Of a stretch of 64,000 nucleotides of DNA, positions 8,104-57,200 are shown in pieces. Position numbers and translations under genes: made by a program. The stretch's first letter is position 1; each line of letters begins with the position of its first letter. The notes under the pieces were generated by a model. That model was not told where the DNA came from and ran no database searches. It saw nothing but the letters and a program-made list of their open reading frames with translations. The stretch covers positions 1 to 64,000 of the forward strand of contig JAPLNL010000114.1 of the NCBI GenBank assembly GCA_026692905.1, written 5' to 3'. This stretch comes from Planctomycetota bacterium. GTDB taxonomy: Bacteria; Planctomycetota; Planctomycetia; Pirellulales; Pirellulaceae.

Positions 8104-8329
8104 ATGAATGCACCTAACCGAACGATGATCTTGCGGTTACCCGAACCAAATTCCGATAAAAAGGAATATTAGCAGGTCAACAAAGGTTTCGGGAGACGCA
8201 AGCCAAAATGGTTTCGAGCGTAAGCAGTCGAGCCGGAATCCCCCATATTATTCAAGAAGTTTGGCGGTCATAACCAAGATTCTCATACAAATACCAAATT
8301 TGTGGTAAGCCACTCGCTCCCGGGCTCGG

Positions 8330-8393
8330 CCCAACGCTGTGCAGTCCCAACGCTGTGCAGTCCCAACGTTGTGCAGTCCCAACGCTGTGCAGT
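8330..8393. repeat. Four tandem 16-bp repeats
   Basis: The unit CCCAACGCTGTGCAGT is repeated four times without gaps at 8330-8345, 8346-8361, 8362-8377 and 8378-8393. Only one base differs (GTTGT in copy 3). It lies in the 520-bp space upstream of the sigma gene. No coding role is apparent; it may be a variable-number tandem repeat. Confidence 0.9.
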
Positions 8394-8419
8394 ATTGTTC
8401 GCTGCTAAAAAACGATTGA

Positions 8420-8500
8420 GTAGCGAAAGTCGTCAAGACTTTCGGATGAATCGCCCAAACGACCGAAACTCTTGACTAGTTTCGCAACAAAACGCTTCAC
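8420..8500 (+). repeat. Family A twin-hairpin repeat, copy 1
   Basis: Hairpin 1 has stem CGAAAGTC/GACTTTCG with loop GTCAA (8424-8444). After 19 nt, hairpin 2 has stem CGAAACTC/TAGTTTCG with loop TTGAC (8464-8484), carrying one stem mismatch in this copy. The two loops are complementary. Other copies are at 18586-18654, 29160-29238, 52697-52780 and 57120-57200. Confidence 0.85.
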
Positions 8501-8553
8501 ATCTTTAGGTTCCACCGGTAAGAACTTCGTGCTTGGCTCAGGGTCCCAACCAA

Positions 8554-8585
8554 CGAAAAAAGGCTCGGGATGCATCCCGAGCCTT
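8554..8585 (-). terminator. Rho-independent terminator of the small acidic gene
   Basis: An 11-bp stem (AAGGCTCGGGA / TCCCGAGCCTT) with a TGCA tetraloop at 8560-8585 is followed on the minus strand by a T run (A run at 8554-8560 on the plus strand). It lies about 40 bp downstream of the minus-strand gene ending at 8624, which supports that gene as a real transcription unit. Confidence 0.8.
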
Positions 8586-8623
8586 ACACGACTTCAAAAA
8601 AATACGATGGTGGTTGCCTAAGA

Positions 8624-18552: not shown

Positions 18553-18736
18553 AGCCGTGAAACGCAACGCTGTTTCGCATTTTGCAGCGAAACTCGTCAA
18601 GAGTTTCTGTGGTTTACGCAAGGCAGCCGAAAGTCTTGACGACTTTCGCTACAGAAAAGTCCAATTTACATTGAGCAGAATGCGAAACAGCTTTGCGTGA
18701 AACGGCGCTACTAAACCGTGGCGCCGTTTCACGGCT
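18553..18736. repeat. Nested palindromes: family A inside a 24-bp inverted repeat inside family C
   Basis: The outer layer is AGCCGTGAAACG (18553-18564) and CGTTTCACGGCT (18725-18736). Inside is a 24-bp imperfect inverted repeat (18562-18585 and 18675-18698; 22 of 24 match). Inside that is an inverted copy of the twin-hairpin family A (18586-18654). The order suggests successive insertions. The space lies between the HlyD gene's 5' end and the DUF1552 gene's 3' end. Confidence 0.75.
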
Positions 18737-28898: not shown

Positions 28899-29306
28899 TT
28901 TACTAACTCCAAAACAAAAGTTTTAATAAACCGCGCCGTTAACTGCCTGGTTGTCATGCCTATACGAGACGTGATCCAGTGCCACCATTCCTTGATGGCG
29001 GTTGACGCGAAATCTGTTACACACAGCGTTCAGTCCGAAATCGAAAAAGCCAACGCAGACGTCGTATTTTACTCAAAAGAATTTGTTTAACACCTGTTTT
29101 GGTTCTAAAAATACCGAAAATGCGGAATGTGACACACGCGTCGGGTTTCACGACAAGCGTAGCGAAAGTCGTCAAGACTTTCGGCTGATGGCCTAAACAA
29201 CCGAAACTCTTGACGAGTTTCGCTACAGCATGATTCACAGCGTTGGGGTAGGGGGATTCGCAAAAGAATGACGTGTTGCCTTATTCACGCTTTTGTCCAC
29301 TGCCTC
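28899..29306. other. Intergenic space with a family A repeat
   Basis: A 408-bp space between two minus-strand genes. It contains the promoter region of the Cys-rich gene and family A copy 3 at 29160-29238. I see no gene in the rest. Confidence 0.5.
29160..29238 (+). repeat. Family A twin-hairpin repeat, copy 3
   Basis: Both hairpins are perfect here: stem CGAAAGTC/GACTTTCG with loop GTCAA (29163-29183), and, after 18 nt, stem CGAAACTC/GAGTTTCG with loop TTGAC (29202-29222). The copy lies just beyond the 3' end of the DUF3686 ATPase gene. Confidence 0.9.
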
Positions 29307-34726: not shown

Positions 34727-35002
34727 CTCGGGAGGGTGAGGCAACCCCTGTAAACCTGTTTCCAACAAGTTTACCTCAGCAATTCATTGCTCGGGAGGGT
34801 GAGGCTCCTGCCGAACCTTTGGACCGTTGGCTCGGCAGGAGCCTCGCCCTCCCTAAGGTTTTAATGAAATTGGCTTTACAAAGATGTTTACAGCGGTTGG
34901 GTGAGGCTCCTGTCGAACCTTTGCATTCGTTACCAGGGAGGGTGAGGCTCCTGTCGAACCTTTGGACCGTTAGCTCGGCAGGAGCCTCGCCTTCCCATTT
35001 GA
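34727..35002 (+). repeat. Family B palindrome cluster (left of deacetylase gene)
   Basis: The main hairpin has 21-bp arms (34794-34814 and 34832-34852; 20 of 21 pair) built on GGAGGGTGAGGCTCCTGCCGA. It is followed by the conserved spacer AAGGTTTTAATGAAATTGGC...GATGTTTACAG (34855-34893). A second hairpin of the same type is spread over 34900-34998. Fragments of CAATTCATTGCTCGGGAGGG flank it. The same order recurs at 36101-36240 and, inverted, at 52800-52975. Confidence 0.88.
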
Positions 35003-36055: not shown

Positions 36056-36289
36056 AGAGGCCGTCTCACTTTTGGGCTCACCCAACGAATTCGTTACCAG
36101 GGAGGGTGAGGCTCCTGCCGAACCTTTGGACCGTTGGCTCGGCAGGAGCCTCGCCCTCCCTAAGGTTTTAATGAAATTGGCTTTGCAAAGATGTTTACAG
36201 GGGTGGGGTGAGGCTCCTGCCGAAAGCGGTGGCCTCGCTCTCCCTTTGAAATGGCAGGCAATTCCAAAATAAAAAGGAGACAGCCTTCT
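36056..36289. repeat. TIR-bounded element carrying family B hairpins
   Basis: The left end AGAGGCCGTCTCACTTTT (36056-36073) matches, over 17 bp, the left end of the element at 56810. The right end (36271-36289, AAAAAGGAGACAGCCTTCT) is an imperfect inverse complement of it. Between them are a family B hairpin (36101-36121 and 36139-36159), the conserved 40-bp spacer and a second, shortened hairpin. The element occupies most of the space between the deacetylase start and the DUF1501 stop. Confidence 0.65.
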
Positions 36290-52696: not shown

Positions 52697-52780
52697 TGTG
52701 TAGCGGATGTCGTCAAGACTTTCGGCTGCATCGCCTAAACGACCGAAACTCTTGACGAGTTTCGCTACATAGAGCTTCAC
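52697..52780 (+). repeat. Family A twin-hairpin repeat, copy 4 (left hairpin degraded)
   Basis: The left hairpin has lost pairing (CGGATGTC opposite GACTTTCG). The right hairpin CGAAACTC/GAGTTTCG with loop TTGAC is intact. It directly precedes the family B cluster. Confidence 0.8.
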
Positions 52781-52796: not shown

Positions 52797-52985
52797 ATTG
52801 AGGCTCCTGCCGAACTTCGATGCAGTAAGCTCGGCAGGAGCCTCGCTCCACCTCTGTAAACATCTTTGCAAAGTCAATTCCATTGAAAACCTTAGGGAGG
52901 GCGAGGCTCCTGCCGAGCCAACGGTGCAAAGGTTCGGCAGGAGCCTCACCCTCCCGAGCAACGAATTGCTGAGGTAAACTCGTTG
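52797..52985 (-). repeat. Family B palindrome cluster, inverted copy
   Basis: A 21-bp-arm hairpin at 52896-52916 and 52934-52954, the conserved spacer in inverse orientation (52856-52892), and a second hairpin (52800-52850). The order is the mirror image of the copies at 34794 and 36101, including the flanking GAGCAACGAATTGCTGAGG. Confidence 0.88.
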
Positions 52986-53418
52986 GAAACATGTTTTTGC
53001 CATCGGCCTTTTTGTTCCCTGGCACCGGGGCAAGTGTTGACTTGCCCCGGTGCGCAGTATCAAGCTCTATCGTGAAGCGCTGTCGCCTAGCAATCGACCC
53101 AGTAATCGCTATTTAACAGTTATGTGCTGCTCCAACCCAGGAGGAAGGCCGATCGAACATTCCCGCAAATTTCCGATCGACGACAGAGCTTTTCTTGGTT
53201 CTTTGATGGAACAGGGAATACGACAGCGGCGACCGGAACGTCAATCCCAATTCGAGGAATTTCATTCCTGAATCCAAACAAATAGGGGTGAAAGATCGCC
53301 CGCCTACCCATCTTTCCTAAATGGCCGCTTGAACAGGAAAAAGGGGAATGAGTCGCGCTATGGTTTCCACTTCAGGTCGTAGCAAGTATCGTAAAGGTGA
53401 GCGAAGGGTTCAAAGATA

Positions 53419-56779: not shown

Positions 56780-57120
56780 TAGCACCAAAGCAGTGTCCGG
56801 TCGGGACAAAGAGGCCGTCTCACTTTGTTGGGGAAATGTGTTTAGCCGTGTAACGGCGACAGTTCGTAGCTGCGGGGCTCGCCCCGCAGACAAATTCCGA
56901 AATCGAATACAAGAGCCGTGAAACGGCGTCACCTCACCGTGGCGCCGTTTCACGGCTCTTGAATTCATCTGGCCTAGAAACCGTGGGGCGAGCCCCACGG
57001 CTACAAAGTGTCGCCGCTATCGCGGCTAAGAAACAAAGCAATAGTCTTCTTACGAGAAAATCGACAGGTCCAAAGCGAGACGGCCTCCGAGCCCGAACCG
57101 GACAAAACAACCAATATCAA
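56780..57120 (+). repeat. Family F repeat interrupted by an insertion
   Basis: The left half (AGCACCAAAGCAGTGTCCGG, then TCGGGACAA to 56809) and the right half (GCCCGAACCGGACAAAACAA, then CCAATATCAA from 57091) are the two parts of the intact copy at 40150-40207. The intervening 281 bp are the TIR element at 56810-57090. Confidence 0.85.
56810..57090. mobile_element. 281-bp MITE-like element with 16-bp terminal inverted repeats
   Basis: The ends are GAGGCCGTCTCACTTT (56811-56826) and AAAGCGAGACGGCCTC (57072-57087), inverse complements with one mismatch. It has no coding capacity. The interior carries family C palindromes, including GAGCCGTGAAACGGCG and CGCCGTTTCACGGCTC (around 56912-56960) and CCGTGGGG/CCCCACGG. 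No clean target-site duplication is visible. Insertion into a known repeat gives a precise empty-site comparison. Confidence 0.75.
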
Positions 57121-57200
57121 AAGCGAAAGTCGTCAAGACTTTCGGCTGCATTGCCGAAAACACCGAAACTCTTGACGAGTTTCGCTACAAAATGCTTCAA
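57120..57200 (+). repeat. Family A twin-hairpin repeat, copy 5
   Basis: Two perfect hairpins, stems CGAAAGTC/GACTTTCG with loop GTCAA and CGAAACTC/GAGTTTCG with loop TTGAC, with 19 nt between. It directly abuts the right half of the family F repeat. Confidence 0.9.

Follow-up and report, generated by a model that had tools for sequence, protein, structure and literature searches.

A GTAG-tagged repeat of a planctomycete genome, very probably a REPIN, and its candidate RAYT transposase

Introduction

The closest described relatives of the repeat studied here are GTAG-tagged REPs, the REPINs and BIMEs that they form, and the RAYT enzymes linked to them. GTAG repeats and RAYT-like genes have already been reported in the planctomycete phylum, and the GTAG REP families and REPtrons described there, Rhodopirellula baltica included, share with our repeat the GTAG tag, HH dimers, heterodimers, intragenic REPs and the occurrence of several repeat-flanked tyrosine transposases in a planctomycete (PMC3733652). 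In Pseudomonas fluorescens, as here, REPs are repeated as inverted doublets that occur in many copies and in tandem REPIN clusters, one such cluster adjoins the RAYT gene, and singlets persist as remnants (PMC3116915). The E. coli BIMEs also carry a GTAG tag and pair unlike REPs (y with z1 or z2), and TnpA-REP, an HUH/Y1 enzyme like the one reported below, recognizes single-stranded hairpins in a strand-specific manner (PMC8266576). Here we describe a planctomycete REPIN tied to a RAYT of the same genome, and compare both with a wider family of RAYT loci.

Results

REPIN copies in the window

A pattern scan with both hairpins of the 64-kb window, meaning the whole stretch of DNA that was analysed, recovered the five copies of a twin-hairpin repeat listed by a first-pass annotation made from the letters alone. 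The spacing of 18-19 nt that it gave was also borne out, with 18 nt in the copy at 29163 and 19 nt in the other four. The diagnostic feature, absent from that annotation, is a GTAG ahead of each hairpin on its own strand, decayed in some copies. Each REP here comprises GTAG, an 8-bp stem and the loop GTCAA, and two REPs in inverted orientation make a REPIN unit of ~69 bp. The left hairpin reads GTAG-CGAAAGTC-GTCAA-GACTTTCG, and the right hairpin, on the other strand, reads GTAG-CGAAACTC-GTCAA-GAGTTTCG. The copies in the window are as follows.

8420..8488, plus strand: REPIN copy 1; tag GTAG at 8420-8423, hairpin at 8424-8444
8464-8484: hairpin of the inverted REP of copy 1, one mismatch; its tag at 8485-8488 has decayed to CAAC
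18584..18652, minus strand: REPIN copy 2, inverted; hairpin 1 at 18628-18648, tag at 18649-18652
18588-18608: hairpin 2 of copy 2, one mismatch; its tag has decayed (CTGC on the minus strand)
29159..29226, plus strand: REPIN copy 3; hairpins at 29163-29183 and 29202-29222, 18-nt spacer, both hairpins and both tags intact
52700..52768, plus strand: REPIN copy 4; hairpins at 52704-52724 (two mismatches) and 52744-52764 (exact), both tags intact
57120..57188, plus strand: REPIN copy 5; hairpins at 57124-57144 and 57164-57184, both exact; the left tag has decayed and reads AAAG

Apart from the intact copy at 29163, all copies (4/5) have a stem or tag defect. At up to three mismatches the window contained 14 matches to hairpin 1 and 12 to hairpin 2, counts in which one hairpin can match on both strands, while chance would give 0.02 and 0.01 per window, respectively. 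No Rfam family reached its gathering score in the window, and plasmid records searched with window positions 8300-8620 returned no match.

Other repeats also occur in the window. A short tandem repeat (units like CCCAACGCTGTGCAGT) lies directly upstream of REPIN copy 1, at window ~8330-8395. A second repeat family, partly self-complementary, occupies 52831-52996, just downstream of REPIN copy 4, as well as 34752-34916, 36088-36223 and 34925-34996, and has many matches in genomes G009 and G021.

Copies across the genome

The genome (5.96 Mb in 148 contigs) contained 99 exact copies of hairpin 1, in keeping with the expectation of the first-pass annotation that further copies would exist. GTAG-tagged hairpins with up to three mismatches numbered 307 genome-wide, and the reversed pattern was found 0 times. 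An inverted partner was present downstream of 91/99 exact hairpin-1 copies, with 8/99 lacking one. The partner hairpin was exact in 63/91 paired copies and the spacing was 19 nt in 75/91. The left tag was GTAG in 82/99 exact copies, and the right tag CTAC followed the partner in 76/91 pairs. Among the 91 paired copies, some conservation continued outward from either end of the dimer for ~20 nt, and 10/91 formed a sub-family with longer conserved flanks, to which the window copy at 18588 belongs.

By simple ORF calling (at least 120 aa, longest first), 77/99 exact copies were intergenic, 14 overlapped an ORF of at least 120 aa, and 8 were at stretch ends. The intergenic copies fell in co-directional (40), convergent (26) and divergent (11) gaps, which at the same loci make up 31.1, 17.8 and 18.3 kb of sequence, respectively, REPIN-bearing gaps included. 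Copies were thinnest in divergent gaps (11 in 18.3 kb), and REPs in general show the same leaning away from such gaps (PMC3733652).

A candidate RAYT gene on contig C59

REP/BIME elements mobilised by RAYTs, which the first-pass annotation offered as the nearest analogy, turned out to be what the repeat is, going by its tags, inverted dimers and linked RAYT. The accompanying statement that no transposase is encoded here was correct for the window contig, C114, on which we found no Y1 transposase, but the genome encodes one elsewhere. This gene lies on contig C59 inside an array of these REPINs, the flanking arrangement that the annotation had proposed to look for. The candidate RAYT is a 197-aa ORF (G000:C59:464-1057; L052:464-1057) with REPINs upstream at 14, 197 and 380 and downstream at 1096 and 1279. 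The protein contains both an HUH motif (DHLH) and a Y motif (YIARNP); across 41 relatives, H69, H71, N134 and P135 are invariant and Y130 nearly so, and Y...NP is the signature of class 2 (RAYT) enzymes (PMC6006769). Its scores against Pfam Y1_Tnp (13.9 bits, cut-off 23) and NCBIfam NF047646 (34.5 bits, cut-off 80) are both below threshold, and the gene, being below the Pfam cut-off, came to light only by reading the tandem array. All 41 relatives in set A2 matched NCBIfam REP_Tyr_transpos with E 0.01 or better. A PADLOC run on two RAYTs gave no match.

For the relative from strain CA13, which shares 73% identity with the C59 protein, structure prediction gave a model with a pLDDT of 90.8. Its first PDB match was 4er8, an E. 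coli RAYT with a REP hairpin (E 6.4e-7, TM 0.60/0.70, 14% sequence identity in the structural match), followed by the IS608 and ISDra2 transposases. By this model of a relative, the C59 protein is predicted to have the TnpA-REP fold. The name RAYT for the C59 protein, which belongs to a divergent group, rests on motifs, fold and flanking REPs.

The upstream array units are spaced 183 bp apart on C59. The DNA between the REPINs of the array consists of the start of the RAYT gene joined to a piece from near its end, with the middle missing, and these internally deleted RAYT copies stand beside the intact gene (L052:1-1353, G000:C59). The end of contig C5 (L089, G000:C5) carries a further array unit and C59 starts inside the array, so the array may span the contig gap. 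One intact RAYT gene of this clade was found in the genome.

The repeat has a tag, a high copy number mostly outside genes, an inverted dimer and a linked RAYT, as REPs and REPINs do. It is very probably a REPIN, a non-autonomous single-strand DNA element mobilised, now or formerly, in trans by the C59 RAYT, and the C59 transposase is probably the enzyme that copies it.

The RAYT family and its REPs

Two peptide patterns run against species genomes, a non-exhaustive scan, gave 51 loci of this RAYT family. Judging from record titles, 49 belong to planctomycetes and 2 to Verrucomicrobiota. At the 48 loci with a usable gene, GTAG/GTGG hairpins had a density of 2.86 per kb up to 500 nt from the RAYT gene (129 in 45.1 kb) and of 0.088 per kb more than 1 kb from it (14 in 158.9 kb). 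Under a strict hairpin rule, 18/48 loci were without a GTAG hairpin. Under a looser rule counting every mismatch type alike, applied to C59 together with those 48 (49 distinct loci), GTAG hairpins were present at 46/49 loci and absent from 3/49, for a total of 148 unique hairpins; control tags in place of GTAG yielded 7 (CTAC), 13 (GATC) and 3 (CATG).

The RAYTs closest to the C59 protein were those of NAT61 (74%), CA13 (73%) and Ww147 (69%). The REP at all three reads GTAGCGGAA(G/C)TCGTCAAGA(C/G)TTTCG, which differs from the window REP in having G in place of A at stem position 3. The next RAYT, 66% identical, has a REP variant with two further compensated pairs, and more distant RAYTs have other stems in their REPs. 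On a tree of 27 RAYTs, the C59 protein and its four nearest relatives formed one supported clade. As far as these sequences go, covariation is found between RAYT lineages and not among the copies of one genome.

Strand bias and decay

Non-Watson-Crick pairs at the RAYT loci (looser rule), read on the GTAG strand, were mostly wobbles, with 68 G.T/T.G and 10 A.C/C.A pairs. Counted by locus, wobbles occurred at 34 and A.C/C.A pairs at 9 of 46 loci. A structure on the opposite strand would give the reverse bias. The preponderance of wobbles fits single-strand recognition of the tagged strand, which would produce such a bias and has been reported for TnpA-REP (PMC8266576).

Within this genome, the decaying partner hairpins had no strand bias (9 wobble versus 7 A.C/C.A pairs). 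The first-pass annotation had also taken many copies with uncompensated stem changes as evidence against its view, and this was partly what we found: among the 91 partner hairpins only 2/35 changed stem pairs were compensated, with 5 of the 35 coming from one copy with a shifted frame. Given this low compensation and lack of bias, the target of selection appears to be the REPs linked to RAYTs, together with those recently derived from them, rather than every copy.

The same observations bear on whether the twin hairpin could be an RNA element selected by the host, such as a 3'-end stabiliser, an attenuator or a kissing-loop RNA, with each copy useful. Such an element would suit the largely intergenic copies (77/99) and their thinning in divergent gaps, and the pair can indeed fold as RNA. 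However, the changed partner hairpins are not maintained by compensation (2/35 pairs) and show no bias (9 versus 7), and the REPs are concentrated around RAYT genes. In addition, each dimer carries one GTAG on either strand, so that a wobble bias that follows GTAG does not follow a single transcript. We consider an RNA element improbable and retain the RAYT-mobilised REPIN.

Twin hairpins, the long fold and unlike ends

The loops GTCAA and TTGAC are exact inverse complements, as the first-pass annotation had stated, but the kissing interaction that it drew from them is unneeded. Both inverted REPs carry one loop on opposite strands, which makes the complementarity automatic, and we rejected kissing loops on the same ground. 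Selection for twin hairpins over the long fold, also proposed there, is likewise unsupported. As DNA, the long heterodimer fold has -24.5 kcal/mol against 2 x -7.7 for separate hairpins, and RNA folding of the pair gave the same fold with the long hairpin as the minimum, so the long fold is favoured as both DNA and RNA. The long fold of a hypothetical homodimer would have -32.3 kcal/mol as DNA. The observation behind that proposal, that both partners of one pair had changed together, was accurate: pair 6 of the partner is of the C-G type in 82/91 paired copies and of the G-C type, which makes a homodimer, in 1/91. This compensated difference can be explained without selection for the twin form.

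Dimers were present at 29/49 RAYT loci. Among these 74 dimers, 58 had a compensated stem difference, 7 had identical stems and 9 had other differences, and at least one compensated dimer was found at 24/29 loci. With one dimer per locus, 16/22 heterodimers differed at stem pair 6, in a test that took the "cleanest" dimer, which favours heterodimers, and that treats related loci. Of all single positions, pair 6 is the one at which a difference shortens the remaining duplex of the long fold most. The mean longest duplex was 8.95 bp, compared with 11.2 bp when positions are drawn at random and 9.52 bp when the draw is confined to pairs 5-8. On the RAYT tree, the types of pair-6 difference were dispersed, with 15 changes over 27 rows.

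This optimum could be read as selection for a broken palindrome, a reading weakened by comparing differences within dimers with those between loci. Pair 6 differed in 52-53% of comparisons within dimers and 69-70% between loci. Pairs 2, 3 and 4, with all pairs included, differed in 14, 10 and 22% within dimers and in 73, 53 and 61% between loci; with only Watson-Crick pairs, the values within dimers were 9, 3 and 3%. The outer pairs are therefore less tightly coupled once non-Watson-Crick pairs are included, pair 4 above all. Most simply, the enzyme would read the outer stem pairs and leave pair 6 almost unconstrained. Heterodimers have been described earlier, with nuclease avoidance proposed as their role (PMC3733652), and a role of the unlike ends in avoiding nucleases is possible. 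According to the same source, the heterodimer preference "has no obvious explanation" (PMC3733652), and the coupling pattern suggests one, namely that only the outer stem is read while the inner pair drifts.

Related genomes

An 88-base query matched 12/60 genomes, including the genome from which it came. The doublet pattern, which scores a dimer twice, once per strand, when both tags are present, had 114 matches in this genome, 312 in G021, 2 in G024, 15 in G032 and 0 in G023. We compared seven sites with G021, which were those inside the queried stretches and not a random sample, in genes ~85-92% identical. A REPIN was present in both genomes at 6/7 sites, and no empty site or transposition event was seen at the seven. 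At site 18588 the flanking genes match in G021 but enclose a REPIN of a different type in the reverse orientation.

No RAYT of this clade was found in G021 or G032, as expected if REPINs outlive their RAYT. G021 has more REPINs than this genome yet no RAYT of the clade among its 620 contigs, an assembly that may miss one. The presence of REPINs and that of the RAYT thus do not seem to go together strictly.

Several further observations concern these genomes. Beside one shared REPIN, this genome has ~100 bp that are absent from G021 (L099 ~2598-2700, G000:C20), possibly an insertion or deletion at the REPIN border. A sulfatase ORF of G032 (1070 aa, L047:5887-9099) holds at least seven in-frame REP-like sequences of this type, which contribute repeated peptides, SGSRQDFR and ETLDEFR among them; REPs inside genes have already been described (PMC3733652). 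Y1_Tnp matches are many in same-genus genomes (19 in G009, 14 in G021), in which several RAYT or IS200-like groups seem to coexist.

Discussion

We propose that the REPINs would move as single-stranded DNA. The GTAG strand would become single-stranded, and the RAYT would then recognize GTAG and the outer part of the stem, with the inner stem pairs needing only to pair. The enzyme would cleave beside the hairpin with its single tyrosine and re-join the unit elsewhere, so that the doublet would spread as one unit. The anatomy and copy number of the repeat, the linked gene with its HUH and Y motifs, the fold of a 73%-identical relative, the matching REPs of the nearest relatives and the wobble bias are observed, and binding, cleavage, transposition, present activity and the choice of stem pairs read are inferred.

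Another Y1 transposase could be the mobilising enzyme, for instance the 231-aa protein at G000:C99:53074-53412, which has a REPIN ~330 nt from its gene both here and at the matching place in G021. That REPIN lies on one side only in an 8.0-kb stretch, whereas REPINs flank the C59 gene upstream and downstream, and it is relatives of the C59 protein that carry this REP type in other genomes. None of these REPs was found in the flanks (up to 1.5 kb) of the 30 Y1_Tnp loci returned. Another Y1 enzyme is thus a slim prospect beside the C59 RAYT. Slimmer still is the case for a MITE that depends on a DDE transposase, bears terminal inverted repeats and owes nothing to a RAYT: the two inverted ends and the conservation outside the dimer, long in the sub-family of 10/91, would allow it, but both ends are tagged hairpins in their own right and the gene linked to them encodes an HUH/Y1 enzyme.

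With a planctomycete REPIN tied to a RAYT of the same genome, and with a family of 51 loci, the recognition code of domesticated transposases becomes testable. The 183-bp units of REPIN plus deleted RAYT look intermediate between an autonomous element and a REPIN. We advance tentatively, as a joint proposal that may well fail in one of its parts, that these divergent planctomycete RAYTs have a REP code readable from sequence, in which pairs 2, 3 and, less clearly, 4 set the specificity, varying jointly at the two ends of a dimer and in step with the RAYT lineage, and the loop-proximal pairs, chiefly 6, need only pair; that the ends stay unlike at pair 6 since it is free, and that this difference cuts the cruciform to duplexes of at most 9 bp; and that the deleted RAYT copies in the array show the birth of a REPIN.

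Against the systems introduced at the outset, the differences are as follows. In P. fluorescens the REP sequence is different, the unit is shorter and the RAYT belongs to another group, and here the ends differ at one stem pair and the array units hold an internally deleted RAYT gene (PMC3116915). E. coli REPs need a bulge for activity, while the stems here are regular or have a wobble pair (PMC8266576). The IS200/IS605 elements IS608 and ISDra2 share the enzyme fold and hairpin ends with our system, which differs from them in its Y...NP motif and in having one intact gene of the clade in the genome. The window REP may or may not already be among those listed for R. baltica in PMC3733652. What is added here to the described planctomycete repeats is the link between a REPIN and a RAYT, the series of internally deleted RAYT copies in the array, and the way in which the REP stem is coupled pair by pair.
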